Shown here piece after piece: positions 12,333 through 40,799 of a DNA stretch of 41,548 bases. A program made the translations under genes and the position numbers. Each line of letters opens with the position of its first letter. Positions within the stretch are counted from its first letter, which is position 1. This DNA comes from Cellulomonas iranensis NBRC 101100 = JCM 18110 (lineage in GTDB: Bacteria; Actinomycetota; Actinomycetes; Actinomycetales; Cellulomonadaceae): contig NZ_BCRB01000030.1 in assembly GCF_001552375.1 (NCBI RefSeq), forward strand, positions 1-41,548, written 5' to 3'. The notes under the pieces were generated by a model. It did not search any database. It had not been told where the DNA came from and saw only the letters and a list, made by a program, of their open reading frames with translations.

Positions 12333-12365
12333 GTGCTGCTCCCTGGGGTCGTCGGGCACGCCGGG

Positions 12366-13028: not shown

Positions 13029-13060
13029 GGAATTGCCCCCCTGGTGCGACGACATGGGCG

Positions 13061-13090: not shown

Positions 13091-13104
13091 GCGGTGTCGA
13101 GACG

Positions 13105-24470: not shown

Positions 24471-26188
24471 CGCGCGCGACCGAGCTCGCGCGGCACGCGG
24501 TGCTGGGCGTGACCACCGCTGCGGCCATGCTCGTGGAGGACCCGGCCCTGCTGGTGGTCCAGGCGAGCCGCCGGGCGCCGCGGTCGCTCGCACGGCGCGC
24601 GGCGGTGCTGCTGCGGCGCGGGGCCCGGGAGCCGCGGCGCGACGCCCGGCTGGGGCTCGCGGCGTGGTTGACGGGGCACCGGGACGTCGCGCGCACGCAC
24701 GTCGCCGCGGCGCTCGCCGCCCCCGGCGGCCGGGCGGGGCGTCGCGTGCTGGCGGAGGTCGCGGTCGAGCTCGACGTGCCCGACCCGGGGGCGCGCGGCG
24801 CGACGGCGGCCCGGCGCGCGTGGCGCGAGGGCCGCGTGGACGACGCGGTCCGGCTCGCGCAGGGCACCGCGCTCGGGCGCCGGCTCGCGTCCGAGCGCGA
24901 CCTCATGACGCCGGGGCTCCGGCTGCCGACGCCCACGGTCCCGCCGACCCGACCGGCACCCGACGGGGCACCCCGGGCGCTGCACGTGCTGGTGAACTCG
25001 CTGCCGCACACCGCCAGCGGGTACGCGCTGCGCAGCCACGCGGTGCTGCGGGCGCAGGCCGCGGCGGGGGTCGACGTCCTGGCCGCCACCCGGATCGGGT
25101 ACCCGGTGTCGGTCGGCCTCGTGGGCGCGCGGGACGTCGACGTGGTCGACGACGTGGAGTACCGACGCCTGCTGCCCTGGGCGACGGCCCGGACCCCCGG
25201 CGCCCGGCTCGAGCAGCACGCGCACGCGCTCGCACAGGTCGCGGCCCGCTGGGGGCCGACCGTGCTGCACACGACCACCAACTACACGAACGCCCTGGTC
25301 ACGCAGGCCGTCGCCGCCGCGCTGGGGGTGCCGTGGGTGTACGAGGTGCGCGGCCTGCTCGAGGACACGTGGGCCGCGTCGTTCCCGACGCCCGCGTTGC
25401 GCGACGCCGCCCGCGCGAGCCGGCGGCACGCGATGCTGCGCGCCCGCGAGGCCGAGCTGGCGTCCGCGGCGGACCACGTCGTGGTGCTGGGCGCGACCGT
25501 CCGTGACGACCTCGTGGCGCGCGGCGTCGACGCCGCACGGATCACGGTGGTGCCCAACAGCGTCGACACGGCCCTGCTGGGCCGCCACGTATCCTCGGTC
25601 GAGGCGCGCCGTGCGTTGGGGCTCCCCACCTCCGGGTTCTGGGTGGGCACGGTGACGAGCCTGGTGGACTACGAAGGGATCGTCACGCTGGTGGACGCGG
25701 TCGCGCGGCTGCGCGACCGGGGGGTGGACGCGCGAGCGGCGGTCGTCGGTGACGGCGTCGCGCGCCCCGCGGTCGAGCGCAGGGTCCAGGAGCTGGGTCT
25801 CACGGAGCACGTCGTGCTGCCCGGGCGCGTCCCGCCGGGCGCGGCGACGTCCTGGTACGAGGCGCTCGACGCGTTCGCCGTCCCCCGCCGCGACACCGCG
25901 GTGACGCGCACGGTCGTGCCGCTCAAGCCCATGCAGGCGATGGCCCTGGGGCGTCCCGTCGTCGCGAGCGACCTGCCCGCGCTGGCCGAGGTCGTCGCGG
26001 CGCCCGGTGCGGGTCTGCTGGCGGCGCCGGACGACGCGACGGCGTGGGCCGACGCCCTCGAGCGCCTCGCGGGCGACGACGCGCTCGCCGCACGGCTCGG
26101 CGCCGCGGGCCGCGAGTTCGCCGCGGGGCGCACGTGGGCCGCCGCCGGCGCGCGCTACCGCGCCCTCTACGAGGAGCTCGCGGCATGA
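24467..26188 (+). CDS. GT4-family glycosyltransferase with helical N-terminal extension
   Basis: This 573-residue protein has two parts. Residues 1-165 are Ala/Arg-rich and helical, with hints of short degenerate helical repeats (RRDARLGLAAWLTGHRDVAR, VDDAVRLAQGTALGRRL). The GT-B fold starts near residue 171 with ALHVLVNSLPHTASGYALRS. The donor half has FWVGTVTSLVDYEGIVTLV, LPGRVPPG and PLKPMQAMALGRPVVASD in place of a full E-x7-E motif. The start overlaps the previous stop (GTGA). The N-terminal part may tether the enzyme to the exporter or to other transferases; that is speculation. Its stop overlaps the Wzm gene ATG. Confidence 0.85.
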   Translation: MTRATELARHAVLGVTTAAAMLVEDPALLVVQASRRAPRSLARRAAVLLRRGAREPRRDARLGLAAWLTGHRDVARTHVAAALAAPGGRAGRRVLAEVAVELDVPDPGARGATAARRAWREGRVDDAVRLAQGTALGRRLASERDLMTPGLRLPTPTVPPTRPAPDGAPRALHVLVNSLPHTASGYALRSHAVLRAQAAAGVDVLAATRIGYPVSVGLVGARDVDVVDDVEYRRLLPWATARTPGARLEQHAHALAQVAARWGPTVLHTTTNYTNALVTQAVAAALGVPWVYEVRGLLEDTWAASFPTPALRDAARASRRHAMLRAREAELASAADHVVVLGATVRDDLVARGVDAARITVVPNSVDTALLGRHVSSVEARRALGLPTSGFWVGTVTSLVDYEGIVTLVDAVARLRDRGVDARAAVVGDGVARPAVERRVQELGLTEHVVLPGRVPPGAATSWYEALDAFAVPRRDTAVTRTVVPLKPMQAMALGRPVVASDLPALAEVVAAPGAGLLAAPDDATAWADALERLAGDDALAARLGAAGREFAAGRTWAAAGARYRALYEELAA

Positions 26189-27147
26189 CCACGGCCCCGC
26201 CGAGCACCGACCCGCTGCCCGACGTCCCCCGGTTCACCAAACCGCTGCTCTCCCGCGAGGGCAGGCGCCCCGTGCGGGTCGAGCCGGTCGACGGCACCGC
26301 GCTGCACCCCGTCGCCGACCGGCCCGCGCTGGGCGACTACCTGCGGCTGCTGTGGCAGCGCCGGCACTTCATCGTCGCGGACGCGCGCGCCAAGGTCATC
26401 AGCGGCACGAGCGGCAACCTGCTGGGGCAGGTGTGGCTCGTGCTGAACCCGCTGCTCGACGCCGCCGTGTACCTCGTGATCTTCGGGCTGCTGCTGCGGT
26501 CGAGCCGGGGCATCGACAACTTCATCGGGTACCTCATCATCGGCGTCTTCATGTTCGGGTTCACGACCCGGTCGGTGACGGGTGGTGCACGGTCGGTCAT
26601 CGCGGCCCGGTCGCTCGTGAAGTCGTTCTCGTTCCCCCGGGCCGCGCTGCCGATCGCGACCGTCGCGCGCGAGACGCTGAGCTTCGTGCCGGCGTTCGTC
26701 ACGATGGCCCTCCTCGTGCTGCTGACCCGCCCTGGTGCCGGCGAGGACTGGTCGACGCCGCTGCAGGAGATCAGCTGGCGGTGGCTGCTCGTGCCCCTCG
26801 TCCTGGTGCTGCAGATCGCGATGAACCTCGGCCTCGCGCTGCTCGCGGCGCGGGCGACGACCCGTGTCCCCGACCTCAACCACGTCATCGGGCTCGCCAT
26901 GCGGTTCTGGCTGTACGGGTCGGCCGTGTTCTTCTCGTTCGACCGGTTCATCTCGCACCCGCAGGTGCTCGAGCTGGTGCAGCTCAACCCGATGTACCGG
27001 GTGCTGGAGATCACGCGGGACTGCCTGCTGTACGGCGTCACGCCGCCGTGGCAGGCGTGGACGATCGTCGCCTGCTGGGCCGTCGGCCTCCTGCTGGTCG
27101 GCACCGTCGTGTTCTGGCGCGGGGAGGAGTCGTATGGCTCCGTCTAG
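26185..27147 (+). CDS. wzm: ABC-2 type polysaccharide exporter permease (Wzm-like)
   Basis: This 320-residue protein has about 6 membrane helices between residues 70 and 312. A cytoplasmic N-terminus of about 65 residues includes the amphipathic stretch YLRLLWQRRHFIVADARAKV typical of Wzm/TagG permeases. Then comes LLGQVWLVLNPLLDAAVYLVIF, matching the family's LGxxWxxLxP motif. Later ARSLVKSFSFPRAALPI and LNPMYRVLEITRDCLL also match. It probably exports a complete lipid-linked glycan with the ATPase encoded next. The ATG lies in the ATGA overlap with the GT4 stop, and its own 3' end overlaps the ATPase gene by 14 nt. Confidence 0.9.
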   Translation: MTTAPPSTDPLPDVPRFTKPLLSREGRRPVRVEPVDGTALHPVADRPALGDYLRLLWQRRHFIVADARAKVISGTSGNLLGQVWLVLNPLLDAAVYLVIFGLLLRSSRGIDNFIGYLIIGVFMFGFTTRSVTGGARSVIAARSLVKSFSFPRAALPIATVARETLSFVPAFVTMALLVLLTRPGAGEDWSTPLQEISWRWLLVPLVLVLQIAMNLGLALLAARATTRVPDLNHVIGLAMRFWLYGSAVFFSFDRFISHPQVLELVQLNPMYRVLEITRDCLLYGVTPPWQAWTIVACWAVGLLLVGTVVFWRGEESYGSV

Positions 27148-28057
27148 CGGACCCGTCACGTCGGCCGTCACCGCGCTCACGCCCGTACAGGTCGCGGTCG
27201 ACGACGTGCACGTGCGCTACCGCACGCCGTCGTCCGACACGTCCGCCGCCCGCGACGTCCCCCGGCCGCTGCGGGTCGTCAACCGGCTCATCGGCCGGCA
27301 GGCGAACGTCGCCGTGCGCGCGCTGGCCGGGGTGTCGCTCGTCGCACGGTCCGGTGACGCGATCGGCGTCGTCGGCCTCAACGGCTCGGGCAAGAGCACG
27401 CTGCTGCGGGTCATCGCGGGACTCGAGCGCCCCATCCGCGGCCAGGTGCTCGCGCGCACCCAGCCCGTGCTGCTGGGCGTCAACGCCGCGATGGTCCCCG
27501 AGCTCACGGGCCAGCAGAACGTGCGGCTCGGCTGCCTGGCCATGGGCATGACGCCCGAGCAGGCCGCGGCCGCGTACCGGGACATCGTCGAGCTGTCCGG
27601 GCTGGGCCCGCAGATCCACCACCCCATGAAGACGTACTCGTCGGGCATGGGCGCGCGACTCAAGTTCGCGATCGCCGCCGCGGCCAACCCCAAGATCCTG
27701 CTCATCGACGAGGCCCTCGCCACCGGCGACGCCGCGTTCCGCGAGCGGTCGCAGGACCGCATGGACCGGCTGCGCGCCTCCGCGGGCTGCACGTTCCTCG
27801 TGTCGCACGCCGCCAAGACCATCGAGGAGACCTGCACGCGCGCCGTCTGGCTGCACAAGGGCCACCTCGTCATGGAGGGCGACGCGTACGCCGTCGCGCA
27901 GAAGTACCGCTGGTGGGCGTGGAACCTCGCCAAGGGCGAGGACGAGAAGGCCTCGAGCCTGCTCGACGACGCGTTCCGCGAGGGCCACGACACGGCCGTG
28001 CGCGTCACCGACCTGTACGACCCGACCGCACCACCCCGGCACGTCCGTGCCCGCTGA
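27134..28057 (+). CDS. wzt: ABC-type polysaccharide exporter ATPase (Wzt/TagH-like)
   Basis: This 307-residue ATPase has Walker A GLNGSGKST (81-89), signature YSSGMGARL (168-176), Walker B ILLIDEA (188-194) with TGD, and an H-loop at SHAAKTIEE (His225). The SSGMxARL form is specific to polysaccharide exporters. The first 60 residues form an extended N-terminal strand region. Only about 50 residues follow the nucleotide-binding domain, so the C-terminal carbohydrate-binding domain of long Wzt proteins (O9a type) is absent. The ATG overlaps the Wzm gene by 14 nt. It should power export of the glycan made by the neighbouring transferases. Confidence 0.92.
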   Translation: MAPSSGPVTSAVTALTPVQVAVDDVHVRYRTPSSDTSAARDVPRPLRVVNRLIGRQANVAVRALAGVSLVARSGDAIGVVGLNGSGKSTLLRVIAGLERPIRGQVLARTQPVLLGVNAAMVPELTGQQNVRLGCLAMGMTPEQAAAAYRDIVELSGLGPQIHHPMKTYSSGMGARLKFAIAAAANPKILLIDEALATGDAAFRERSQDRMDRLRASAGCTFLVSHAAKTIEETCTRAVWLHKGHLVMEGDAYAVAQKYRWWAWNLAKGEDEKASSLLDDAFREGHDTAVRVTDLYDPTAPPRHVRAR

Positions 28058-28073
28058 CCCAGGAGAACGCCCC

Positions 28074-29201
28074 GTGCGACCCCGCATCATGACCGTCTAC
28101 GGCACCCGACCCGAGGCCATCAAGTGCGCCCCGCTGGTCAAGGCGATCGAGGCGAGCGACGACCTCGACGGCGTCGTGGTGGTCACGGGTCAGCACCGCG
28201 AGATGCTCGACCAGGTCAACGCGCTCTTCGAGATCACGCCCGACCACGACCTCGACGTCATGAGCCACGGCCAGACCCTCGCGCAGATCTTCAGCCGCGT
28301 CCTCGACGGCCTCGACCCGATCCTCGCCGCCGAGCGGCCCGACGCCGTCGTCGTGCAGGGCGACACCACCACCTCGACCGCCGCCGCGCTCGCCGCGTTC
28401 TACCGGCAGGTCCCCGTGGTGCACCTCGAGGCCGGGCTGCGCTCGGGCGACCTCGCGTCGCCGTTCCCCGAGGAGGGGAACCGGAAGATCACGTCGCAGA
28501 TCGCGGCGCTTCACCTCGCGCCGACCGGAGTCAGCCGCGACAACCTGCTCCGCGAGGGCGTCGCGGAGGACGACGTCGTCATCACCGGGAACACCGTGAT
28601 CGACGCGCTGCTCACCGCCGTCGAGCGGCAGGTGCCCTTCACCGACCCGGCCCTCGCGCGTGCCGTCGCCGACGGCCGCCGCCTGCTGCTCGTCACCACG
28701 CACCGCCGCGAGAACTGGGGCGACGCCATGCAGGGCGTCGGCCGCGCCGTGGCGCGGATCGCCCGCGAGCACGAGGACCTGCTCGTCGTGCTGCCCGCCC
28801 ACCGCAACCCCGTGGTGCGCGAGGCCATCCTGCCCGCGCTCGACGGCCTGCCCAACGTCCTGGTCACCGAGCCGCTGCCCTACGGGGAGTTCGCGCGGCT
28901 CATGGCCGAGGCGCACGTGATCCTCTCCGACTCGGGCGGCGTCCAGGAGGAGGCCCCGAGCCTCGGGACGCCCGTGCTGGTCATGCGCGACACCACCGAG
29001 CGCCCCGAGGCCGTCGCCGCCGGCACGGTACGGCTCGTCGGCACGGACGAGGAGACGATCGTCGCGGAGGTCACCACGCTGCTGCGCGACACGAGCGCGC
29101 ACGCCGCGATGGCGACCGCCGAGAACCCGTACGGGGACGGGACGGCGGCGCTGGCGAGCCGTGCGGCGATCGAGTCGGTCGTCAGGAGCGGGCAGCGCTG
29201 A
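28074..29201 (+). CDS. wecB: UDP-N-acetylglucosamine 2-epimerase (non-hydrolysing)
   Basis: This 375-residue enzyme interconverts UDP-GlcNAc and UDP-ManNAc. GTRPEAIK (10-17) is the nucleotide-binding start. VVQGDTTTS, HLEAGLRSGD, PFPEEGNRK, TTHRRENWG and SDSGGVQEEAPSLG with MRDTTERPEA follow in canonical order. The GTG at 28074 follows AGGAGA at 7 nt; an upstream in-frame GTG (28047) overlaps the ATPase gene and lacks such a site. Together with the UDP-ManNAc dehydrogenase at 36190-37458 it would provide UDP-ManNAcA. It is the last gene of the plus-strand arm, and its stop is 21 nt from the convergent DUF6270 gene. Confidence 0.95.
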   Translation: MRPRIMTVYGTRPEAIKCAPLVKAIEASDDLDGVVVVTGQHREMLDQVNALFEITPDHDLDVMSHGQTLAQIFSRVLDGLDPILAAERPDAVVVQGDTTTSTAAALAAFYRQVPVVHLEAGLRSGDLASPFPEEGNRKITSQIAALHLAPTGVSRDNLLREGVAEDDVVITGNTVIDALLTAVERQVPFTDPALARAVADGRRLLLVTTHRRENWGDAMQGVGRAVARIAREHEDLLVVLPAHRNPVVREAILPALDGLPNVLVTEPLPYGEFARLMAEAHVILSDSGGVQEEAPSLGTPVLVMRDTTERPEAVAAGTVRLVGTDEETIVAEVTTLLRDTSAHAAMATAENPYGDGTAALASRAAIESVVRSGQR

Positions 29202-29222: not shown

Positions 29223-31229
29223 TCAACGGGCCGCCGTTGCCCTCCACAGGTCCTCGGACAGGTCGGGGCCGCCGTCCTGCCGGGGCGTGGCCTCAAGCCG
29301 CTCGAACGCGCGGACCAAGCGGTCCTCGAACAGCTCCCGAGGCACGGGCAGGTGCCCGTCGCCCAGATCGATCGGGAGGATCTGCACCCGCCCGTCGCGT
29401 GACCGGCCCCCGCGTGCGTCGAGCCCGAACAGACCGGCGAACGGGGCGCAGTGCTCCACGACGTGGTGCGTGTCGCCCTGGTTGATGACGTAGTCCACGA
29501 GGTTCGTCGTGCCTCTGAGGTAGCGAGGGATCACGCTCGCACGCTCCTGGATCCGCAGGTCGGCCGTGGGATCGCCGTGCCCGAACACCGCGGCCGAAGC
29601 CCGCGCCCAGTCGTCCTCGTGGTAGCGCCACAGCACCGTCTGGGGGGCGAAGACCAGTGCGATCGAGCGCGGCATCCGGCCCGAGAGCTGCAGGGCCGCG
29701 AAGCCACCGCCGCTGCCCCCCGTCACGGCGACCTCGGACGCCCCGGTCAGACGGGCCATGCGCGCCGTGAGCTGTTCGACGACATCGATCAGGTCCGTCT
29801 CAGCCGACCCGAGGAACCACCCCAGCCCCATCTCGGCGTCCTGGACCAGCGTGGCGTCGCACAGCAGCAGGAAGGACCACGGCGCCTCCTTGCGAGAGGT
29901 CACGCGCTCGAAGTCCGGGTACTCCGTGGTCGACCGGTCCGCCGCACCGTGGAACCCGACGGCGAGCCGCCGTCCGCGGCGACGCCCCGCCAGCGTCCAC
30001 AGCCGCATGTCCGCCACGTCCACGGGGTAGAGGGCCACGAGACCGGGCGCGGGCGTGAACTCGTCCACCGTCGTGCTCTCGGCGATCGGGAGCTGGTACC
30101 GACGGTGCCATCCGTGCACGCGCAGGACTCCCTCGTCCTGCGACACGGTCGTCGCGTCGGCAAGCTCCGCGCGAGCGACGTCGAGGTGCGCACCGGCGGG
30201 CCCGGGGACGCCGGACACGTAGAGGCGGACCGCCGTGACGTCGCCTTGGGCAGCCCCGCCCCCGGCGGCGTCCACGAGCAGGTCGCACGGGACATGGAGC
30301 CGCAGGTCCTGGTCCTGCTCGACCGCCGTCAGGATCAGGCGGTGGTAGACGCCGCCCACGACGACGCCGACCGCGACGTAGGTCAGCTGTGCCCATCCGG
30401 TCAGACGCAGCGCCACGTCGAGCACGTCACCGTCCCTGCGGGAGTCCACGACGTCGACGACATGTCGGTCACCGAACCCCTCGAAGGCCCAGCGCCGCGG
30501 CGTCGCCCGGCCGAGGCTGGACCGCAGACCCGCACGGAGCGAGGCGTAGAACCCGGGGACGTAGTGGAAGGGCGACAGCCCCCACTTGTGGTCGCGGCAC
30601 GCGACGATCTCGTCCTCGCCCGGCTCGATGAACTGCTCAGGCGCAAGGTCGGCACGCATGCGCGCGTACAGGCGGTCGAGAAAGGCGTTGGACGACGCGA
30701 CGAAGGCGGGCGGATAGGCGTCCGGCAAGTCGGAGCCGTCGTCGACCGCAGCGGCCCATCTCGCTGCGTTCACCCGGAGCGCCGACCGGCGTCCGCGACG
30801 GTCCAGCGCCTCGACGAAGCGTGTCCAACCCGCTTCCCAGAGCTCCATGAACTCGGGGCTGCCCGACCGGATGCGTTCGGTCTCCGGGATGCGCGCCGCG
30901 CGCGTCAGCTCCGCCGAGTAGGTGCAGACGGCGCCGGACGCGGGGTCCCGCAGCAGGTCGAAACGCTCGTCGACGGGGTCGTAGACGATGAGGTCGCTGT
31001 CGTCGGCCGCGAGGAATCCGGGGAGCTCCTTCGCCAGGTCGGCCTGCACGATGCGCCGTTGGAAGGCCGAGTCGATGCCGTCGAGGTCGACCCCGACGAA
31101 CGCGGGCTCGGACATCGCGCTCGCGAGCGACGACCGCGCGTAGTACGCGGAGATCTCCCACTCGTCGGCGTCCTCCGGGCGGAAGGCGTCACGCGTGACA
31201 CAGCTTCCGATGATGGCCACGCGGGTCAC
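29223..31229 (-). CDS. DUF6270-domain plus alpha/beta-hydrolase fusion (Asp2-like, possible acyltransferase/esterase)
   Basis: This 668-residue protein has an N-terminal DUF6270-like domain (about 1-250) beginning IIGSCVTRDAF, with an SGNH-hydrolase-like GSC position and DHKWGLSPFHYVPGF (213-227) resembling the C-terminal His block. A beta-rich middle (about 255-400) follows. The C-terminal domain (about 410-640) has the nucleophile elbow VTGGSGGGFAAL (Ser506) and a late GDGH (His626) in an alpha/beta-hydrolase order resembling Asp2-type proteins. It may acetylate, deacylate or otherwise edit the glycan. The GTG start overlaps the stop of the giant protein gene (GTGA). A sampled part of the gene is less G+C-rich (37 of 60 bases at 29461-29520) than wecB nearby (46 of 60 at 28321-28380). 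Domain naming is from memory of motifs, so activity is uncertain. Confidence 0.72.
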   Translation of the reverse strand: MTRVAIIGSCVTRDAFRPEDADEWEISAYYARSSLASAMSEPAFVGVDLDGIDSAFQRRIVQADLAKELPGFLAADDSDLIVYDPVDERFDLLRDPASGAVCTYSAELTRAARIPETERIRSGSPEFMELWEAGWTRFVEALDRRGRRSALRVNAARWAAAVDDGSDLPDAYPPAFVASSNAFLDRLYARMRADLAPEQFIEPGEDEIVACRDHKWGLSPFHYVPGFYASLRAGLRSSLGRATPRRWAFEGFGDRHVVDVVDSRRDGDVLDVALRLTGWAQLTYVAVGVVVGGVYHRLILTAVEQDQDLRLHVPCDLLVDAAGGGAAQGDVTAVRLYVSGVPGPAGAHLDVARAELADATTVSQDEGVLRVHGWHRRYQLPIAESTTVDEFTPAPGLVALYPVDVADMRLWTLAGRRRGRRLAVGFHGAADRSTTEYPDFERVTSRKEAPWSFLLLCDATLVQDAEMGLGWFLGSAETDLIDVVEQLTARMARLTGASEVAVTGGSGGGFAALQLSGRMPRSIALVFAPQTVLWRYHEDDWARASAAVFGHGDPTADLRIQERASVIPRYLRGTTNLVDYVINQGDTHHVVEHCAPFAGLFGLDARGGRSRDGRVQILPIDLGDGHLPVPRELFEDRLVRAFERLEATPRQDGGPDLSEDLWRATAAR

Positions 31230-34200
31230 GAGCTCTCCCCTCGCGAGCGGATGAGCTCGATCTCGGCGGCGATCACGGAACGGGCCGAGGACTGGCGCTC
31301 GACCCGCGCCGCTGCGGCGGCCGACATCCGCGAGAAGCGCTCCGGGTCGCGGACGAGCTCCAGCATCCCCGCCGCCATGACCGCGTGGTCGTCACCGGGC
31401 GCGAGGACGCCGGACTCCTCGTCGACGAACTCGGGGACAGCCGCGACGGCGTTGGTCACCGGAACCAGGCCGGAGGCCATGGCCTCGTCGCGGGACACCC
31501 CCTGGGCGTCCATCCGCGTCGGGACGAGGAAGACCCCGTGCTGCCTGTGCAGCTCGACGATCTCGTGCTGGGTGAGGAACCGCCGTTCGAGGGTGACGTT
31601 CGGCATGTCCCGCAGCGGTGCGAGCGTCTCGTCGAAGAGCGGTCCGTCACCCACGAAACGGAAGGTCATCGCGGAGAACTCTGGCTCGTCCCGCAGGGCG
31701 AGCACGGCGTCGACAGCGAGGTCGTTCGCGTACTTCCGGGAGGCGTAGGGCCTGACGGACAGCACCTTGCGTCGGAGCTCGACGTCCTTCGGCCGGTAGG
31801 AGAACAGCTCGGTGTCGATCGGGTTGTGGATGATCGAGTAGCGGTGAGCCGGAAGCTCGACTCCGACGTCCTGCATGACCTCGTCCGCGAAGTACCGCGA
31901 CACGAAGACGAAGTGCACGTCGTCACCGGGGTCGGCGAAGACCGACCGCCAGAACTCCAGGCGCCGCGTGCTGCGCTCCTTCTCGACCGCCAGCTGCTCC
32001 TCGTCGGTGATGTTGTAGGAACGGCGCCACCACGGCTGCACCTCCGCCCCGTGGATCCACACGACCACCCGGGTACCCGGTCGCCGCGCCTGGAGCGCGT
32101 CCCACATCAGCGGGTCGAGGAAGTGCACGAGCACCGCCTCGTGACCGCCGTCGCGCACGAGCCCCGCGAGCGCCCTGCCCGACCCCGTGGTGACGTCGAC
32201 GCCCTCGAACTCGCGGTAGGCGATCGCGCTCTCGTCGCGCAGGCAGAACACCTCGCACGCGAGCCCCCGGTCGCGGTAGGCGCGGACGCGCGAGTGCACG
32301 AACCCGTTGCGGTACAGGTCGCCGTACGACGGGTAGATGTTGGTGACGACCAGCGCCGACGCGCGTGGGACCACGGTGGTGGGCTCGGTGACCCGGTGGC
32401 TCCACGCGATCGTGCGCAGCTCCGCGGACCCGGTCCCGCGGACCCGGAGGCCCAGCTTCACCTGCGCCGTCCCGTCCGGCACGTCGATCGTCGTGTTCGT
32501 GTGGCTGCGGACGACCGTGGAGCCCAGGCGCGTGCCGCCCTCGTCGTAGCAGACGAGCGCGACCTGCAGGTCGAGCCCGATGCCGGCGTCGACGTGGACG
32601 GCACCGACGTCCGACCAGGAGGCGGGCACCGGAATGGTGCGCGGGGCGTAGACGTAGTCGTGGACGTCGTCGGCGAGCGCCGCGGAGACGCGGACGCCGC
32701 TCGCCGAGAGGTCGAGGTCGATGCCGCGACGCGTCGCTCCGGCGAAGGCGTCCGCGAGGTCCTGCCCCGTCATCTCGTCGACCGTGTCCGCCACCGCCGC
32801 GGGCGGGATCGCCTCGGCCGCGCGGATCAGCTCGTCCATCCCCGTCCCCGACGCGGGCGGCCGGGGGTCCACGGACCGGGCCGCCACGTGGTCGTCCGCC
32901 GGTGCGGCGCAGTAGCTGAAGCGGTCGAGGGCGACCTGGTGCGCGACCGGCACCGGGCCGTCCGCGACCAGGAGCGCGAGGAGGTCGGCGGTCGTCGTCG
33001 ACGCCACGGCCTGCGCGCGGACCAGCGACCGTCGCGCGCCGAGGTCCTGGACCGCCTGGTACTCGACGCCGTCCGTGAGTCCCGCGGCGCCGTTCTCCCA
33101 GCGGTGGTGGCGGTGCTTGCCGACAGCGGACGCCGCCGTGTACCGGAACCCCAGCACGAGGTCGGTGAGGTAGTCGGCTCCGTAGTAGTCGGGCGCCCAC
33201 ATCGGCGCGATGACCTCGGCGCCCGCGGCCGCCTCGCCCAGCGTGCGCGGGACCCGGTCCAGCGGCAGCAGGGCGATGCGGCTGTCCAGCCCCTCGGGGC
33301 CGTCCACGCCGGCGCCGACCGCGACGGTGGCGGTCCACCGGTCGTAGCGCTGCCGCTCGAGGTGCTCCACGAGCCGCGCGAGCTCGGACGCGGTCGTCGC
33401 GTGGGCGACGACGTGCACCGCGGGAGCCCAGGGCGTCCACGGGCGTCCGAGGACGCGCGACAGGACGTAGGACGCCCGGTCCGCGTACGTGTGCTGCCGC
33501 ATCACGGTCCGCAGGGCGCCCAGGCGGATGTCGTCTGAGGTGCCCGTGGCCTCGATCTCGCGCAGCCGTCGCACGGCCTCCGGCCCCGAGTCGGTCGTGA
33601 CGACCAGGTCGCCGAAGAGGACGCGCGCAGCGCGCGCGTCGTTGCTCACCGTGAGCGTCCCCGACGCCAGGAGCTCGAAGATCCGCCGGGCGAGCATCGT
33701 CTGCGACTGCTTCACCGAGTTGAGGTTGATCGCGTACCGGTACCGGCGGTAGGCGTCGGGTACCTCCTCGGGCGCGAGCGTCCCCACGATCGAGCCGCGG
33801 TAGGAGTCCGGGAACATGTACGCCTCGTCGGTCCCGCCGAGGTTCCGGTCGTAGATGTCGACCGGTCGCAGCTGCGGCAGGTGCTCCATGTAGCTCTCGA
33901 GGTCCCGCGTCCGCTCCGGGTACCGCCGGTAGTAGGCGCCCGCGAACAGGAACGCGTCCCGGCGGTCCTCGCCCGCGATCGGGTGGTACGCGGCCGGTTG
34001 CACGGCGAACGGCAGCAACCACACGCGGTCGTGGCGGAGCGCTGCCTTGTAGTGCTCGATCCTGTCGATGTCGGTCGTGAAGACGTGGTCGAAGAGGCCC
34101 GCCGCGTTGAGGAACGTGGCGTAGTGGACCGGGTCCTCCTTGTTCCAGAACACGGTCGGCACGCCACGTTCCCGGCACCAGGCGACGATGCCGCGCAGCT

Positions 34201-36193
34201 CGTCACCGGCGCGGTCCACCATGTTGTGCCAGCTGCCGTCCCGGCCCCGCCAGGCGGACTCGACGAACAGCAGGTCGGGCCCGCACTCGGCGAGCTCGTG
34301 CTCCCACGCACCCGGGGTCAGGTCGGTGAGGTCCCACTCGGGGGCGAACGACAGGCGGGTGAACTCGTCCATGATCGCGGCCACGCGCGGTCGCGTCCCT
34401 CGGGAGCGGTCGACGGCGCCCGCGGCGACCGGCTCCCGCACGGGGCGGGTCTGCTCCTCCGCCGACGGGGAAGCGGCCGGGCTGGTGGGAGCCGCGATCT
34501 CCAGGACCCGACCCCGCGGCCCTGCCGTGGTGCCGCGGGACAGGCGAGCAAGGGTGAGCGGCAGCCGCAGGGCGTCCGGGAAGGAGGACCGCGCCGTGCG
34601 GATCGCCTTCCCGGTCCGGAAGGTCAGGCTCGCGCGCAGATCTGCGACACGTCGTCGCTGGTCGTCCGCGTCCGAGCGGGCGGCGGACAGATCGGCGGCC
34701 AGCCGGTCCCGCTCCTCGCGCAGCACCCGGTTGAGGACCTCCACCTCCTGCGCGGCGCGGCGCTCGTCGCGCTGCGCCCGCTCGCGGTCCGCAGCCTGCG
34801 ACTGCCACCGCACGACCTGCTCGCGCAGGCCGGTGACCTCGGTCTGCAGCTCGGCGACCTGAGAGCGGAGCGCGGACACGGCGGTCGTCCGCTCAGCCCG
34901 GGCGCGGACGAGGTCGGCCTGCGCTTCCTCGAGCTCGGCTGCCGTGCGCTCGACGTCTGCCTGCGAGACCGCGAGCTCCTCCCTGGTGCGCTCGTGGTCA
35001 GCGCGGACGGCGGCGACCTCGGCCGCGAGCTCGTGCAGCCGCGCCATGAGCTCCCGGCGTGCCGACTCGGAGCGCGCGAGCGCCGAGCGGTGCTCCCGCG
35101 CCTCGGCCTCGGCGCGGCGAAGCCGGTCGGAGACGGCGCTCCGCTCCGCGCGCAGAGCGTGCAGGGCCCGCCGGTGCTCCGCCAGGTCCGCCGCCGCCCG
35201 GGCCGCCCCGGCGTCACGCTCCTCCTCGAGTGCGGCGATGGTCGCGACCAGCTGCTCACGCTCGGCGCGCATCTCCTCGATCGCACGGTCGACCGCCACC
35301 CGCTCCTGCGCACCCGACTCGATGCGCGTCTGCGCCTCGTCGAGCGCCGTCTGCAGCGCCTTCGCCGCGACCACCTGGGACCGGTACTTGCGGTTGACCT
35401 CCTCGAGACCGGCGCGCGTCTCGGCCAGCCGCTCGGACACCTCGAACCGCTCGCGCAGTCCTCGGGCGATCGCACGGTCCAGACGCTCCGCCTCGCTGAG
35501 CCGCTCGGCGGGCTCCAGGCGGAACGTCGGGGTCGCGTTGAACTCGTCGCACAGGACGTACCTGTGGGCGACGGCCCATCGGTCGATGCGGATGAGGTCG
35601 TCGCGCGTCCGGCACTCGACGTAGACGAGCGGTCGGTGCTCCTCGATGAGCCGTGCCGCACCCGCGAGCACCTCGAGCTCCATGCCCTCGACGTCGATCT
35701 TGACCATCGCGACCGGGGGGAGGTCCTCGTCGTCGAGACGCACCACCTCCAGGGGCCCGGCGCAGTCCGCCTCGACCGACTGCCCGCCGAGGTTGGTGGG
35801 CATCTCCCGCGCGAAGGAGGCGCGACCGGAGCGCTCGCCGACCGCGACGGGACGCACGCGGACCCGATCGGACAGACCGTTGACCTCGACGCTGCGGCGC
35901 AGAGGCGTGGTGAGACGGTCGTTCGGCTCGTAGGCCACCACGTCGCACCCGGTCACGGCCGCCAGGTACAGGGCGTGGTTGCCGATGTTCGCGCCGACGT
36001 CGACCACCACGTCGCCCGCGGCGAGCCTCGACGCCATGTCCCGGAGCATCTCGTGCTCGTACGGGGTCGCCGTGCGGACGAGCCCGCCCTGGATGTAGTC
36101 CGTGGCCGCGTCCGGCACGGACACCTGGTAGCGCGCACCGTCCACCGTCAGCTCGACCACGGTGGGGGCGGGCGTCGCGCGCTCGGACGTCAT
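31226..36193 (-). CDS. Giant FkbM methyltransferase / coiled-coil / multi-glycosyltransferase protein
   Basis: This 1655-residue protein has six parts. (1) FkbM-type SAM methyltransferase (about 40-225): VVVDVGANIGNHALYLA (62-78), VVAYEPN, MVKIDVEGMELEVL (163-176). (2) Coiled coil (about 228-520) rich in Glu/Arg/Ala heptads. (3) CgeB/DUF3880-like GT-B module (about 603-915): LLFVESAWRG, VPTVFWNKEDPVHY, ARRIFELLASGT. (4) GT2-like module (about 925-1100) whose metal motif is replaced by MWAPD (998-1002). (5) Beta-sandwich-like module (about 1155-1265). (6) GT4 module (about 1278-1650): NIYPSYGDLYRNGFV, FRFVGDGPLF, GVSRDEAMASGLVPV. It probably builds and caps part of the ABC-exported glycan. The ATG overlaps the WecC stop (ATGA). 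Specificity is unknown; modules 3 and 4 are paralogous to the protein at 37473-39362. Confidence 0.85.
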   Translation of the reverse strand: MTSERATPAPTVVELTVDGARYQVSVPDAATDYIQGGLVRTATPYEHEMLRDMASRLAAGDVVVDVGANIGNHALYLAAVTGCDVVAYEPNDRLTTPLRRSVEVNGLSDRVRVRPVAVGERSGRASFAREMPTNLGGQSVEADCAGPLEVVRLDDEDLPPVAMVKIDVEGMELEVLAGAARLIEEHRPLVYVECRTRDDLIRIDRWAVAHRYVLCDEFNATPTFRLEPAERLSEAERLDRAIARGLRERFEVSERLAETRAGLEEVNRKYRSQVVAAKALQTALDEAQTRIESGAQERVAVDRAIEEMRAEREQLVATIAALEEERDAGAARAAADLAEHRRALHALRAERSAVSDRLRRAEAEAREHRSALARSESARRELMARLHELAAEVAAVRADHERTREELAVSQADVERTAAELEEAQADLVRARAERTTAVSALRSQVAELQTEVTGLREQVVRWQSQAADRERAQRDERRAAQEVEVLNRVLREERDRLAADLSAARSDADDQRRRVADLRASLTFRTGKAIRTARSSFPDALRLPLTLARLSRGTTAGPRGRVLEIAAPTSPAASPSAEEQTRPVREPVAAGAVDRSRGTRPRVAAIMDEFTRLSFAPEWDLTDLTPGAWEHELAECGPDLLFVESAWRGRDGSWHNMVDRAGDELRGIVAWCRERGVPTVFWNKEDPVHYATFLNAAGLFDHVFTTDIDRIEHYKAALRHDRVWLLPFAVQPAAYHPIAGEDRRDAFLFAGAYYRRYPERTRDLESYMEHLPQLRPVDIYDRNLGGTDEAYMFPDSYRGSIVGTLAPEEVPDAYRRYRYAINLNSVKQSQTMLARRIFELLASGTLTVSNDARAARVLFGDLVVTTDSGPEAVRRLREIEATGTSDDIRLGALRTVMRQHTYADRASYVLSRVLGRPWTPWAPAVHVVAHATTASELARLVEHLERQRYDRWTATVAVGAGVDGPEGLDSRIALLPLDRVPRTLGEAAAGAEVIAPMWAPDYYGADYLTDLVLGFRYTAASAVGKHRHHRWENGAAGLTDGVEYQAVQDLGARRSLVRAQAVASTTTADLLALLVADGPVPVAHQVALDRFSYCAAPADDHVAARSVDPRPPASGTGMDELIRAAEAIPPAAVADTVDEMTGQDLADAFAGATRRGIDLDLSASGVRVSAALADDVHDYVYAPRTIPVPASWSDVGAVHVDAGIGLDLQVALVCYDEGGTRLGSTVVRSHTNTTIDVPDGTAQVKLGLRVRGTGSAELRTIAWSHRVTEPTTVVPRASALVVTNIYPSYGDLYRNGFVHSRVRAYRDRGLACEVFCLRDESAIAYREFEGVDVTTGSGRALAGLVRDGGHEAVLVHFLDPLMWDALQARRPGTRVVVWIHGAEVQPWWRRSYNITDEEQLAVEKERSTRRLEFWRSVFADPGDDVHFVFVSRYFADEVMQDVGVELPAHRYSIIHNPIDTELFSYRPKDVELRRKVLSVRPYASRKYANDLAVDAVLALRDEPEFSAMTFRFVGDGPLFDETLAPLRDMPNVTLERRFLTQHEIVELHRQHGVFLVPTRMDAQGVSRDEAMASGLVPVTNAVAAVPEFVDEESGVLAPGDDHAVMAAGMLELVRDPERFSRMSAAAAARVERQSSARSVIAAEIELIRSRGESS

Positions 36194-37458
36194 CGCCAGA
36201 CGCCCCGGGTGTCGACGAGTACCTTCTCCGCGATCCGCAGCTCCCGCACGTCGGCGGCCCTGAACTGCGCGTGGTCCACCAGCAGCACCACGACGTCAGC
36301 CGCCGCCACCGCGGTGCCCAGGGCCTCGAGCGACACGTTGCCGCGCTCGGCCAGCTCGGGCGGCAGCCGCTCGATGTGCGGTTCGACCACCGCGATGCGC
36401 GCCTCGGGGAGCGCCTCGGCGAGACGACCGACGATCGCGCGGGCGGGCGACTCGCGCAGGTCGTCGATGTCGGGCTTGAAGGCGAGACCGAGCACAGCGA
36501 CGCGCGGGTCCCGCAGCCGTCGCGCCTTCTCGACCACCTTCTCCACCACCAGTCCCGGCTTGGCGTCGTTCACCTCGCGCGCGGTGCGGATGAGGCGCGC
36601 CTCCTGCGGGGCGGCGTCCACGATGAACCACGGGTCGACGGCGATGCAGTGCCCGCCGACGCCGGGCCCGGGCTGCAGGATGTTGACGCGCGGGTGGTGG
36701 TTGGCGAGCTCGATGAGCTCCCACACGTCGATGCCGAGCTTGTCGGCGATCACCGACAGCTCGTTGGCGAACGCGATGTTGACGTCGCGGTACGAGTTCT
36801 CGACGAGCTTGGCCATCTCCGCGGTGACCGCGTCGGTCAGCATGATCTCGCCCTGGCAGAACATCGCGTACAGGGCCTTCGCCCGCTCGGCCGCCTCGGC
36901 GGTGAGGCCGCCGACGATGCGGTCGTTGGTGACCAGCTCGATCATGACCCGCCCGGGCAGCACGCGCTCGGGGCAGTGCGCGACGTGCAGGACGGGTCGG
37001 CCGTCGGTGCCGTCGAGGCTCAGGTCGGGCCGGGCCGCCAGGATCCGGTCGGCCATGTGGCGGGTCGCCCCGGGCGGGGACGTGGACTCGAGGACCACGA
37101 GCTCACCGCCGCGCAGGCGCGGCGCGATGCCGTCCGCCGCGGCCTCGATGTACGCGAGGTCGGGCGCGTGGTCGCCCGTGAACGGGGTCGGCACGGCCAC
37201 GATGAAGACGTCGGCCTCGGGGGTCTTGGTCTCGGCCCGCAGCCGGCCCTGGGCCACCGCGCCGGAGACGGCGATCTCCAGGTCCGGCTCCACGAACGGC
37301 ACCTCGCCGCGGTTCACCGCGTCGACCGTGGCGGCGTTCACGTCGACGCCGACCACGTCCGCGCCGTGCATCGCCAGCACGGCGGCGGTCGGGAGCCCGA
37401 TGTACCCCAGGCCGATCACCGCCACCGTCGGCACCGGCACCTCCGTCGTGGGTGTCAT
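36190..37458 (-). CDS. wecC: UDP-N-acetyl-D-mannosamine dehydrogenase
   Basis: This 422-residue NAD-dependent enzyme oxidises UDP-ManNAc to UDP-ManNAcA in two steps. The Rossmann motif VIGLGYIGLP (14-23), AVPTPF, EST(S)PPG, VAHCPERVLPG, AEMAKLVENSYRDVNIAFANE and the catalytic-cysteine block PGPGVGGHCIAVDPWF (Cys271) appear in order, followed by GLAFKPDIDDLRESPA. The middle sequence matches WecC more than UDP-glucose dehydrogenase (VPTPF with VLPGR), though the substrate is a family-level call. The ATG at 37458 follows GGAG and a GGGGG run; the frame continues upstream as non-coding sequence. It lies 14 nt after the GT gene at 37473 and overlaps the next gene. Confidence 0.92.
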   Translation of the reverse strand: MTPTTEVPVPTVAVIGLGYIGLPTAAVLAMHGADVVGVDVNAATVDAVNRGEVPFVEPDLEIAVSGAVAQGRLRAETKTPEADVFIVAVPTPFTGDHAPDLAYIEAAADGIAPRLRGGELVVLESTSPPGATRHMADRILAARPDLSLDGTDGRPVLHVAHCPERVLPGRVMIELVTNDRIVGGLTAEAAERAKALYAMFCQGEIMLTDAVTAEMAKLVENSYRDVNIAFANELSVIADKLGIDVWELIELANHHPRVNILQPGPGVGGHCIAVDPWFIVDAAPQEARLIRTAREVNDAKPGLVVEKVVEKARRLRDPRVAVLGLAFKPDIDDLRESPARAIVGRLAEALPEARIAVVEPHIERLPPELAERGNVSLEALGTAVAAADVVVLLVDHAQFRAADVRELRIAEKVLVDTRGVWR

Positions 37459-37472
37459 CCCCCGACCACTCC

Positions 37473-39362
37473 TCACACCATCGCGTGCCCGGGTACCCAC
37501 CCGGCCACCTGAACGTCGGAACCGGCCAGGAGCTCGGCGTCGCTGACCGTCCACGTGTGCGCCGCGGGGTCGCCGCGCCGCACCTGGACGAAGTTGAACC
37601 GGTCCGCCGAGTACACGGACCCCCCGGCCTGCCGCACGGCGGCCAGGAACCCGGTGTCCTCGCCGCGGTCGAGCGCGGGGAACGGCACCGCGGTCGCGGT
37701 CTCGCGGCGGGCCACGATCGTCGGGCCCATCACGAGGTGCGTGAACCGGTGCTCACGGTCCGGCAGCCGCAACGCGATCACGTCCGCACCGCCCACGTAC
37801 ACGTAGTGCGCCTGCTTGCCGACCACGTCCGCGCCCGAGTACCCGAGCGCGTGCACCTGGTCGGCCAGGTACTGCTCGCCGTACACGTCGTCGTCGTCGA
37901 CCTTCGCCACGACGGGCGCGTCCGACGCCGCGACCAGGCGGTTGAGGCACTCCCCCAGCGGCACGGTCGCCTCGGCGTGCAGGAGCACGACGTCGGTGAG
38001 CCCGACCTCGGCGGCGGCACGCGTCACGGCCTCCTCGTCGAGGTCCCAGCCGTGCGCGAGCAGCGCGAGCTGCACGTCGACGTCGCGCTGCGCGCCGAGC
38101 GTCGCCAGCACGTGCGGCAGCTGGTGCGGCCGGCTCGTCGAGACCAGCGCGCTCACGCGGGGCCGTGCCGCCGTCACGCGGTGCGCCGCGAGGCCCGTCG
38201 CGCCCAGCACCTCGTCGACGCGGTGCGCGTACGTGTGGCCCGCCCAGATGCGGCGCTGCGCGCGGTGCACCTGGCGGTCGCGCAGCTCGGGGCTGCGCAC
38301 CAGGGCCCGCAGCGTCAGCTCGGCCTCGCGCCGGTCCGCGACCTGCGTGACCTCGTCGGCGGGGAAGACCCCGTCGATCGCGGGGCTCGGCGTCGACACG
38401 ACCGGGGTGCCGGACGCCGTGATCTCGTAGATGCGGCGCGCGCACATGGTCGGCGAACCGACCACGGTGTTGACGTTGAGGAACACCTTGTGGGCGCGGT
38501 ACGCCGTCAGCATCGACGCGTAGTCCAGCGAGCCCACGACACGTTCGTCGAACGGCGGCGGGAACTGGTACCGCTCGTCGCCGTCCAGCTGGCGCGAGTA
38601 GATCTCCAGCCCCGTGGTCATGCGGGACGACGCGTCGAGGGCGCCGCCCAGCAGCGTCTCGAGCTGCTCGCGGCGCTCGGGGTGCCGGTGCGAGAACCAC
38701 ATGCCCGCGAACGCGACGTCACGCTCGGCCCGGCCCCCGCCCGGGCGCACCGGGTTGTGGATCGCGGGCTGCGCCGCGAACGGCAGCACGCCCACGCGGT
38801 CGTGCCCCAGCTCCTCGCGGTACCGGTCCAGCACGTCGCCGTCCGTCGTCCGCACGTGGTCGAACAGCCGCGCGGCGTCGAGGAAGTCCTCGTGGTGGAC
38901 CGGGTCCTCCTTGTTCCAGAAGACCGTCGGGACGCCGTGCTCGCGGCACCACGTCACCAGCTCGACGAACGCCGGCCGCGGGCCCTGCGCGCCCGTCAGG
39001 TGGTACCGCCACGCGCCGCCGTTGCCGGCCCACGCCGACTCGACGAACAGCAGGTCCACCGGCTCGGCCTCGAGCCGGTGCCGCCAGTCCGCGGGCGTCA
39101 CCTCGACCTGCTGCCACTCGTACGACAGCGCCAGCCGGGAGAAGTCGTCGAGCACGACCGCCACGCGCAGGTCGGCGCGGCGCAGCGGTGCCGTCGGCAC
39201 GGGCCACGCGGGGTACGTGAGCCGTCCCCGGCGGTCGACGCGAGCCCGCACGCCGCGCGGACCGGGCCGCCCGGCACGTTCGCGCGCGAGGTGGGTCCGC
39301 AGCGCGGAGGGTCCGCCGTGCCGCAGGTGCCACAGGGCCCTGCGCCACGCGCGCGCGTCCAT
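37473..39362 (-). CDS. Bifunctional-looking CgeB-like plus GT2 glycosyltransferase
   Basis: This 629-residue protein has a CgeB/DUF3880-like GT-B module (about 65-390) with LLFVESAWAG, WCREHGVPTVFWNKEDPVH and MCARRIYEITASGTPVVST. A GT2-like module (about 402-600) follows, with its metal motif VAKVDDDDVYGEQYL intact (Asp489-492) and a late MGPTIVARRET/GEDTGFL acidic block. It probably adds two linkages or alternating sugars to the ABC-exported glycan. The order and sequence of both modules match residues 603-1100 of the giant protein, so the two genes share an ancestor. The ATG follows GGGGGAGGA. It is the first gene of the minus-strand operon, followed by wecC after 14 nt. Confidence 0.87.
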   Translation of the reverse strand: MDARAWRRALWHLRHGGPSALRTHLARERAGRPGPRGVRARVDRRGRLTYPAWPVPTAPLRRADLRVAVVLDDFSRLALSYEWQQVEVTPADWRHRLEAEPVDLLFVESAWAGNGGAWRYHLTGAQGPRPAFVELVTWCREHGVPTVFWNKEDPVHHEDFLDAARLFDHVRTTDGDVLDRYREELGHDRVGVLPFAAQPAIHNPVRPGGGRAERDVAFAGMWFSHRHPERREQLETLLGGALDASSRMTTGLEIYSRQLDGDERYQFPPPFDERVVGSLDYASMLTAYRAHKVFLNVNTVVGSPTMCARRIYEITASGTPVVSTPSPAIDGVFPADEVTQVADRREAELTLRALVRSPELRDRQVHRAQRRIWAGHTYAHRVDEVLGATGLAAHRVTAARPRVSALVSTSRPHQLPHVLATLGAQRDVDVQLALLAHGWDLDEEAVTRAAAEVGLTDVVLLHAEATVPLGECLNRLVAASDAPVVAKVDDDDVYGEQYLADQVHALGYSGADVVGKQAHYVYVGGADVIALRLPDREHRFTHLVMGPTIVARRETATAVPFPALDRGEDTGFLAAVRQAGGSVYSADRFNFVQVRRGDPAAHTWTVSDAELLAGSDVQVAGWVPGHAMV

Positions 39363-39416
39363 TCGTCGTCCTCCCCCGCCGGCCGTCACCGTCCCGGCCG
39401 CGGTGTCGCACCGGAG

Positions 39417-39559: not shown

Positions 39560-40627
39560 TCACTCGACGACGGGCGGCAGCATGTCCAGGTCGGCCTCGT
39601 GCGCCGCAAGGTACTCGCCCAGCGAGTCGGCGGCGACCGCGGCCATGAGGTCCGCGAGCGCGGGGCGGTCCAGCACGACGATGCTCTGCGCGCCGTCGGG
39701 GCTGCGGCCCGTCCCGGTGAACGGCACCGTGAAGAACCGCATGTCCGTCGACCCGAGGTTCTTGGCGCGGTCCTGCAGGTCGCGCATGACGGCCTCGTCC
39801 AGCCCGTCGTCGGTGGCGACCGAGCGGCTGACGACGTCGAGGAAGCGCGCGGACGTCACCGGGTTGTGGAGCGTGCCGTCGTTGCGCATCTTCGCGACGA
39901 TCGCGCGGACCCACGCCTGCTGGCGCTGCACGCGGTCGAAGTCGCCGCGGGCGAGCGACTTGCGCTCGCGCACGAACCGCAGCGCCTGCTCGCCGGTGAG
40001 GAGCTGCTGCTTGCCGGCGGGCACGACCGTGTCGCCGACCTTGAGGTCCTGGTTGAGCGTCATGCGCACGCCGCCCAGCGCGTCGGTGATGCCGACGAAC
40101 GAGTCGAAGTCCGTGACGACGAAGTGGTCGACGCGCACGTCGGTGAGCTGCTCGACCGTCTGGATCAGCAGCGACGGCCCGCCGTAGGAGAACGCGGCGT
40201 TGATCTTCTGCTCGCCGTAGCCCGGCACGTCGACCCACGAGTCGCGCGGGATCGACATGAGGTACGCGGCGTCGCGGCTCGCGGGCAGGTGGACCAGCAT
40301 GATCGTGTCGGTGCGCTGCGCGCCGAACGACCACTGGTTCGGGTCGCCCGCGGAGATCCGGGAGTCCGACCCCAGCACGAGGACGTTCATCGCGCCGTGG
40401 TCGACGACCTCGTCCTCGGTGCCGCCCGTGGGCGCCGGCGGGGTCGGGCGGGCCGTGATGCCCGCGAACGGGTCGCCGATGTGCTCGACCTGCGAGGCCA
40501 GCCACTTCTGCACGCCCCAGGTCCCGGCGACGCCGACGCCGACGAGGGCGACGACTGTGACGAGCACGACGACGAGCGCACGTCGCGATCGGGAGCGGTG
40601 GCGGGCGTGGGTCGGGGTGGAGGGCAC
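39560..40627 (-). CDS. LCP (LytR-CpsA-Psr) family cell-wall glycopolymer transferase
   Basis: This 355-residue protein has a short Arg-rich cytoplasmic N-terminus, one membrane helix (about 18-38: ALVVVLVTVVALVGVGVAG) and an extracytoplasmic LCP domain (about 75-330). Domain features are MNVLVLGSDSR, RTDTIMLVHL, AYLMSIPRDSWVDVPG, KINAAFSYGGP and FVRERKSLARGDFDRVQRQQAW, which carry the Arg/Asp residues that bind pyrophosphate lipid substrates. It probably moves an undecaprenyl-linked glycan onto peptidoglycan. Lying next to the ABC-exported glycan operon, it is the likely attachment enzyme for that polymer. The GTG start has a TATCCT box 6 nt upstream and no ribosome site (leaderless). Confidence 0.92.
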   Translation of the reverse strand: MPSTPTHARHRSRSRRALVVVLVTVVALVGVGVAGTWGVQKWLASQVEHIGDPFAGITARPTPPAPTGGTEDEVVDHGAMNVLVLGSDSRISAGDPNQWSFGAQRTDTIMLVHLPASRDAAYLMSIPRDSWVDVPGYGEQKINAAFSYGGPSLLIQTVEQLTDVRVDHFVVTDFDSFVGITDALGGVRMTLNQDLKVGDTVVPAGKQQLLTGEQALRFVRERKSLARGDFDRVQRQQAWVRAIVAKMRNDGTLHNPVTSARFLDVVSRSVATDDGLDEAVMRDLQDRAKNLGSTDMRFFTVPFTGTGRSPDGAQSIVVLDRPALADLMAAVAADSLGEYLAAHEADLDMLPPVVE

Positions 40628-40633
40628 GCCCGA

Positions 40634-40639
40634 AGGATA
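40634..40639 (-). promoter_or_regulatory. -10 box TATCCT of a probable leaderless LCP transcript
   Basis: On the minus strand GCTTCCCTATCCT is followed by 6 nt and then the LCP GTG at 40627. The same core occurs on the plus strand at 40800. No ribosome site is visible before the GTG. Confidence 0.55.
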
Positions 40640-40799
40640 GGGAAGCCCGCACCGGCGGCACGAACGCACGACGACGGCCGGCTCGACGTGCACCGAACGT
40701 CGACATCCGCCGCGTCCTTTGCGTCGAAAGTCCGGTCGGGCGGGGCGCCGTGCGGGTGACGTCGGGCCCGGCGGGCCGGGTCGACGCGGCGTCGCTTCC

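Follow-up and report, generated by a model that had tools for sequence, protein, structure and literature searches.

The window, as we call the whole 41,548-nucleotide stretch of Cellulomonas iranensis DNA that was analysed (75% GC), carries on its minus strand an open reading frame for a protein of 1655 amino acids (31226..36193), which combines an FkbM methyltransferase, a coiled coil, a CgeB-type GT-B glycosyltransferase, a degenerate GT2 domain, a region with no Pfam match and a GT4 glycosyltransferase. We refer to it as the polymerase gene, after the role proposed below. The GC content of the frame at the three codon positions (0.75/0.50/0.94) is of the coding type, and the frame overlaps by 4 bases both the wecC frame (36190..37554, minus strand) and a gene (29223..31229, minus strand) whose product is a DUF6270 protein extended by an additional C-terminal part. 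WecC, a UDP-ManNAc dehydrogenase, scores 579.9 bits with NF008286 (cut-off 459) and likely starts near 37458. On the same strand lie a paralog with a CgeB GT-B and a GT2 module (37473..39389), 36% identical to residues 529–1036 of the polymerase, and an LCP transferase (39560..40693). The plus strand encodes the UDP-GlcNAc 2-epimerase WecB (28047..29201; TIGR00236, 462.8 bits), a Wzt/TagH-like ABC ATPase (27155..28057, start chosen in the analysis), a Wzm-like ABC-2 permease (26185..27147) and two GT4 glycosyltransferases with approximate starts (24455..26188 and 23247..24470).

The original prediction had placed the polymerase beside Wzm and Wzt and had described the ATPase as devoid of a carbohydrate-binding domain. 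Both statements hold: the exporter genes lie about 3–5 kb from the near end of the polymerase gene, on the opposite strand, and in the Pfam scan the 300-residue Wzt matched ABC_tran and, below threshold, AAA_21, with no carbohydrate-binding domain found. Next to three actinobacterial relatives, the called ATPases measure 278–339 residues, and those at four Bacillota loci 532–561, that is, with an extra part. UDP-ManNAcA is made through WecB and WecC, and the linkage of glycopolymers to peptidoglycan is the work of LCP enzymes. With wecB, wecC, an ABC exporter and an LCP enzyme, the window locus has the gene set of a teichuronic-acid-type (ManNAcA) polymer locus. This set is kept at locus L001 of Cellulomonas triticagri, and the closest relative with a species name, among the matches listed, is a Cellulomonas.

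The N-terminal domain of the polymerase (residues 1–229; 35507..36193, minus strand, as for all its modules) belongs to the FkbM family, as had been predicted. TIGR01444 matches residues 62–194 with 88 bits against a cut-off of 37.7, and PF05050 matches residues 65–197 with 43.1 against 22.7; conserved positions extend up to residue 219, and the FkbM profile built in the analysis ended at residue 230. Of 44 relatives, 42 keep D65, G67, G71 and N72 and 41 keep N69, so that both glycines are retained; D65, G67 and G71 presumably are SAM-binding positions. The 57–60 or so residues between the methyltransferase core, which ends at 194–197, and the coil gave no Pfam match. The coil itself spans residues 254–525 (34619..35434) by a COILS-type score; it was expected to comprise about 290 residues and comprises 272, against a mean of 37 and a maximum of 141 in 200 composition-keeping shuffles of residues 241–600. 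Directly after the coil comes a basic amphipathic stretch (residues 526–562; 34508..34618), which we take as a candidate for membrane contact; its motif RxSx[TS][FY]xxG recurs, loosely defined, in 134 of 193 sequences. The remainder consists of the CgeB-like GT-B domain (residues about 603–930; 33404..34387; PF13524 at 799–911), the GT2-like module (about 933–1094; 32912..33397), a family-conserved region with no Pfam match that appears beta-rich by eye (about 1165–1290; 32324..32701) and the GT4 domain (about 1302–1644; 31262..32290; PF13439/PF13692 at 1302–1616), in which D1562 and E1570 are present in 49 of 49 aligned sequences.

Three transferase modules had been proposed for this chain. 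The GT-B and GT4 modules stand, and so does the GT2 likeness of the middle one, but the latter is degenerate. Although it has no Pfam match, a family profile of the middle module compared with GT2 domains gave 97.6% with the neighbouring paralog and 98.6% with a Citrobacter plasmid protein, against 0.1% with two negatives and only 8.7% with an unrelated GT2 of the window. The metal-site motif [DE]x[DE] occupies focal positions 1000/1002 in one of 49 aligned sequences and occurs anywhere within 997–1002 in two of them; acidic residues stand at both 1001 and 1002 in 20 of 49, the window protein having only one of the pair. Since this motif is missing from the metal site in 48 of 49 sequences, the module is likely devoid of transferase activity and probably represents a relic rather than a working enzyme; a protein with three active glycosyltransferases was accordingly rejected in favour of two plus a degenerate GT2. 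In the paralog at 37473–39389 the GT2, downstream of the same CgeB module, still has a DDDD motif, so the relic probably derives from a two-domain enzyme of this kind.

The protein is a member of a large family. With residues 580–1655 as the query, 1084 of the 8000 proteins scored were found at E<=1e-10. Among the best 120 of these 1084, 44 carry an FkbM domain at the N terminus and 54 a methyltransferase from a different family (MT12), and 22 have neither. In all 98 methyltransferase-bearing proteins of this sample, the glycosyltransferase part is preceded by at least 50 coil residues, the coil length ranging from 51 to 755 residues. When the FkbM-type set was extended to 143 by a second search (best 120 of 188), a coil of at least 59 residues was found between methyltransferase and glycosyltransferase in 143 of the 143 proteins, among the matches listed; 139 have the CgeB glycosyltransferase, and in the other four (P0179, P0189, P0212 and P0219) the FkbM–coil unit is mounted on GT2/GT4 sets without CgeB. 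For the control, a standalone FkbM–coil protein served as the query and gave 73 additional FkbM relatives within a length limit of about 270–870 residues. At least 50 coil residues were present in 11 of these 73, of which 32 are shorter than 340 residues and have little room for a coil, and in 11 of the 41 with at least 400 residues. On a FastTree of 101 representative glycosyltransferase halves, with nine rows that may be truncated left uncounted, the distribution of FkbM and MT12 needs six changes, with no direction assigned; for MT12 against the rest, the starred branches force six changes. These sequences are related and not independent, and counts made on trees and spanning trees reduce the effect of kinship without removing it.

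The methyltransferase and the coil can both be missing. Among the 22 methyltransferase-less relatives in the best 120 of 1084, nine have fewer than 50 coil residues and 13 have at least 50. Several of the 22 start within the coil or the glycosyltransferase part and may be truncated, while others look whole; among the 13 that keep the coil, only some are plainly truncated. A search for other N-terminal enzymes covered 13 of the 22 and found none. At the level of loci, L008, L011, L012, L014, L015, L019, L020, L033 and L044 lack the methyltransferase and have 0–59 coil residues; L040 and L018 lack it as well, yet have 154 and 87. Since there are members with neither methyltransferase nor long coil, a polymer can presumably be made without them, which suggests that the methyltransferase–coil module is an addition to the polymerase. 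The module also occurs as a protein of its own. In the genes called by our own script, a 712-residue FkbM–coil gene overlaps a glycosyltransferase-only gene by 4 bases at L029, a 496-residue one precedes such a gene at L063, and L048 encodes the coil in one gene and FkbM in another. Standalone FkbM–coil proteins are represented by the Arthrobacter entries P0220 and P0224 and by further entries, so that in some actinobacteria the FkbM–coil part is a separate, WbdD-like protein. Frameshift as the sole reason for the separation was rejected on the strength of the 4-base overlap and of the standalone proteins.

Changes in coil length were counted as indels of at least 5 residues between close relatives, along minimum spanning trees that joined 128 of 193 sequences by 103 edges and did not include the window protein; classes 0, 3 and 4 modulo 7 were taken as phase-keeping. 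Inside the coil, 74 of 98 indels keep the phase (binomial p 5e-11), as compared with 13 of 31 outside it (Fisher 7e-4). The proportions are 28/41 inside and 7/22 outside for the FkbM type alone, and 46/57 and 6/9 for MT12 alone, and the helical phase is mostly preserved for indels of up to about 150 residues. Some Pseudomonas coils are built of tandem repeats. The coil-coding region of Pseudomonas putida locus L007 contains 5.2 in-frame copies of a 117-bp unit with 92% match (8159–8839), and that of Pseudomonas locus L013 contains 3.4 to 3.8 in-frame copies of a 105-bp unit (11141–11538). P0061 and P0044, two proteins with 98% identity across 2151 aligned positions, are set apart by a single 39-residue coil unit, whose identity with its left neighbour is 82%. 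Three inserts of 24, 35 and 74 residues that were examined are not clear copies of their neighbours, and no strong repeat is seen in the DNA of the window coil. The coil is thus a rod whose length changes. Since repeat slippage alone would tend to keep the phase, the comparison of coil lengths among homologs that the original prediction had proposed bears out this change of rod length, mostly in phase and over a wide range, and does not extend to a reading of that length.

As for the nature of the polymer, WecB or WecC (scored in the flanks at 40% identity over 150 residues or more) was found at 35 of the 46 loci that are full-length and at 56 of all 78 loci, and both at 32 of 46 and 44 of 78, respectively. 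Neither gene was present at 11 of the 46 full-length loci, some of which lie on short contigs. The recurrence at 35 of 46 loci makes a ManNAcA-containing, teichuronic-acid-like polymer the likely product. GalU is encoded at four of 78 loci (49–52% identity), so that glucose would be a reasonable partner sugar, by analogy with the teichuronic acid of Micrococcus luteus, described in the available part of PMC3005890 as a ManNAcA/Glc disaccharide polymer. At Pseudomonas loci, wecB and wecC recur directly before the polymerase gene. At least two Kps-specific genes accompany 11 of the 78 loci. The polymerase carries a methyltransferase at four of these (MT12 at L017, L021 and L023, FkbM at L027), the called gene lacks it at L025, L031, L040, L044 and L051, it is split off at L048, and at L042 the match extends over residues 9–1648 with no single called gene. 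Kps loci on Citrobacter and E. coli plasmids contain wecB, wecC and shorter CgeB-type glycosyltransferases that match 19–31% of the query, the Citrobacter one with DUF6270 and galU in addition. One Kps-type capsule pathway is stated, in the portion of PMC11231755 available, to have no terminating residue.

Domains, gene order, conservation, and the association and phase statistics together lead us to favour, with modest confidence, a cytoplasmic and probably membrane-attached polymerase of a ManNAcA polymer, in which the CgeB and GT4 modules would elongate the chain, FkbM would cap it and the coil would set its length. Acting on a lipid-linked chain, the two glycosyltransferases would alternately attach two sugars, of which one is likely ManNAcA. 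The coil would oligomerise and hold FkbM at a fixed distance from the glycosyltransferase modules, about 40 nm for 272 residues at the usual coiled-coil rise of 1.5 Å. A chain end reaching FkbM would be O-methylated and growth would stop, so that coil length would set chain length. Wzm/Wzt would then export the chain, without checking the cap if Wzt truly has no cap-reading domain, and the LCP enzyme would attach the polymer to peptidoglycan. In favour of this mechanism are the invariable coil of FkbM-type proteins (among the matches listed) as compared with its rarity in other FkbM proteins, the six FkbM/MT12 exchanges, the phase-keeping indels, the separate FkbM–coil genes of L029 and L063, the coil repeats of two Pseudomonas loci and the one-unit difference between P0061 and P0044. 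The frequency of WecB or WecC, the gene set kept in L001 and the M. luteus polymer (PMC3005890, as available) also count for it, and so does, by analogy, a domain order equal to that of Klebsiella pneumoniae O7 ORF6 in the available text of PMC11231755. Against it stand the Wzt in which no cap-reading domain was found, the methyltransferase-less relatives, 13 of 22 of which keep a coil, the several relatives beside Kps exporters, the 11 of 46 loci with no wecB or wecC and the window coil with no strong repeat.

The original reading of the protein as ruler and terminator thus fits the coils, the methyltransferase exchange and the phase-keeping indels, but methylation within the repeat is also compatible with the sequence. 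FkbM enzymes commonly decorate sugars, and this one might methylate a sugar within each repeat, the coil merely oligomerising the protein and joining methyltransferase and glycosyltransferase modules, with no length being read. The exporter in which no cap-reading domain was found would suit such an enzyme, and tolerated drift would likewise give coils of 51–755 residues (98 methyltransferase-bearing proteins, best 120 of 1084). We nevertheless regard internal methylation as unlikely. A decorating enzyme needs no rod, and a coil of 50 residues or more is missing from 62 of the 73 other FkbM relatives, although 32 of the 73, at under 340 residues, have little room for one. Moreover, the occupation of one slot by two methyltransferase families, and the occurrence of FkbM–coil with other glycosyltransferase sets (4 of 143, among the matches listed), fit a conserved position better than a particular repeat sugar, and the helical phase is mostly kept over indels of up to about 150 residues.

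A coil acting as scaffold or tether for pathway enzymes (adaptor glycosyltransferases, the DUF6270 protein, the exporter), with methylation serving separately, for example in chain-end protection, appears improbable to us. It would accord with the DUF6270 gene within the operon, with the presence of PF19786 in the same chain in P0133 and P0204, and with the scaffold role of coiled-coil proteins described in the accessible part of PMC11231755. Scaffolding alone, however, leaves unexplained both the tie between coil and methyltransferase across two families and the recent copy-number changes of coil repeats. We give slightly less credence still to an adaptor or side-chain glycosyltransferase, with chain extension by the two GT4 genes at 23247–26188. 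These genes adjoin the exporter both in the window and in L001, where tblastn found one of them and the gene order shows the two, but glycosyltransferase modules, terminator and coil in one chain are the polymerase format of O12 and O7, as far as the excerpt of PMC11231755 goes. At the Pseudomonas loci, furthermore, the recurring neighbours are wecB and wecC, placed directly before the polymerase.

The O12 protein WbbB of K. pneumoniae reportedly terminates its chains by a Kdo transferase and not by a methyltransferase. According to the available text of PMC11231755, O12 WbbB and O7 ORF6 each join terminator, coiled-coil ruler and polymerase in one chain. The original prediction had presented a single-protein elongase, terminator and ruler as a new arrangement; this was rejected, the Klebsiella proteins being earlier and the window protein having over a thousand relatives. 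As in O7 ORF6, a methyltransferase-containing part at the N terminus, in the window protein a presumed terminator, is followed by the coil and by C-terminal glycosyltransferase modules, and the O7 glycan is also exported by an ABC transporter; ORF6, however, has a methyltransferase–kinase pair, a CBM-like domain and two GT2, whereas the window protein, in a Gram-positive setting, has FkbM alone, a CgeB GT-B and a GT4 (PMC11231755, as available). Like O12 WbbB, it would unite polymerase, terminator and ruler in one polypeptide, the terminator role being predicted here; compared by description, WbbB has GT99, GT102 and GT103 in place of CgeB (PF13524), degenerate GT2 and GT4 (same portion of PMC11231755).

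With E. coli O9a/O8 WbdD, as presented in the available parts of PMC3482155 and PMC5082667, the protein shares an N-terminal methyltransferase followed by a coil, and WbdD has, near the polymerase, an end that faces the membrane, to which the basic amphipathic stretch after the window coil would be a candidate counterpart. The O8 WbdD is a simple methyltransferase, that is, a methyltransferase-only terminator (PMC3482155), and O9a chain length changes when the length of the WbdD coil is changed (PMC5082667). The differences are that WbdD is separate from the polymerase WbdA, instead of being fused to it, that O9a WbdD has a kinase (residues 211–459) between methyltransferase and coil, which is absent here as in O8, and that in O9a the cap is recognised by a binding module of Wzt, whereas no such domain was found in the window Wzt (PMC3482155, PMC5082667). 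Compared by description, the E. coli O101/O162 methyltransferase and those of group 3 capsules likewise combine methyltransferase and coil in polysaccharide loci, but their genes sit beside separate glycosyltransferases (available text of PMC13168486 and PMC13171606); coil length varies among group 3 clusters, a variation that PMC13171606, in the part available, treats as not expected to be critical. The M. luteus synthetase resembles our protein, again by description, in that two glycosyltransferase activities in one complex make a wall ManNAcA/Glc polymer, but it is a 440-kDa octamer of two kinds of glycosyltransferase, unlike the single chain considered here (PMC3005890, as available).

What is unusual at this locus would be the presumed FkbM terminator, the Gram-positive setting and the exporter with no recognised cap-binding domain. 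As far as our searches show, the presumed FkbM terminator, the Gram-positive LCP-linked setting, the repeated exchange of terminator families and the copy-number change of coil repeats between near-identical proteins are new; among the matches listed from the open-licence literature there was no mention of FkbM and, in a separate set of matches, none of 'teichuronic acid'. More tentatively, and with less confidence than in the mechanism itself, one may imagine a portable terminator-plus-ruler module, with FkbM or another methyltransferase at the tip of the coil, that sets ManNAcA-polymer length in Gram-positive walls, Kps capsules and Pseudomonas loci with no cap-reading exporter. Chain length would then be encoded by how many in-frame, phase-keeping repeats the coil contains, and strains would change polymer length by gaining or losing repeats. 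If these proposals are true, length control by coiled coils is not confined to Gram-negative O antigens but extends to the wall polymers of Gram-positive bacteria and to Kps-exported capsules, it can operate without cap-gated export, and candidate genes become available for the synthesis of ManNAcA (teichuronic-acid-like) polymers, a poorly characterised class. A link between polymer and ruler length could be tested directly on natural orthologs that are nearly identical apart from the number of coil repeats.

Several further features of these loci deserve mention. DUF6270 is frequently encoded near the polymerase in relatives, and L013 has it in fusion with a rhamnosyltransferase-like part. 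The GSC and H-W motifs of the DUF6270 protein look, to our eye, SGNH-like; its L001 relative has a C-terminal part with a weak, sub-threshold esterase match, found only there. At 12 loci, 11 from Pseudomonas and one from Billgrantia, the polymerase is followed by a member of a family of 573–591-residue proteins (e.g. L003:17044–18807); the one member scanned had no Pfam match, and a search of the flanks of these 12 loci with Wzt and KpsT gave no ABC exporter. Heparinase II/III-like genes lie nearby in L003 and L068. The window itself harbours a second, distinct polysaccharide cluster (1970–14994), with a Bac_transf initiating transferase, two GT2, a GT4, a Wzz/ParA-type chain-length protein and a DUF4012 protein.
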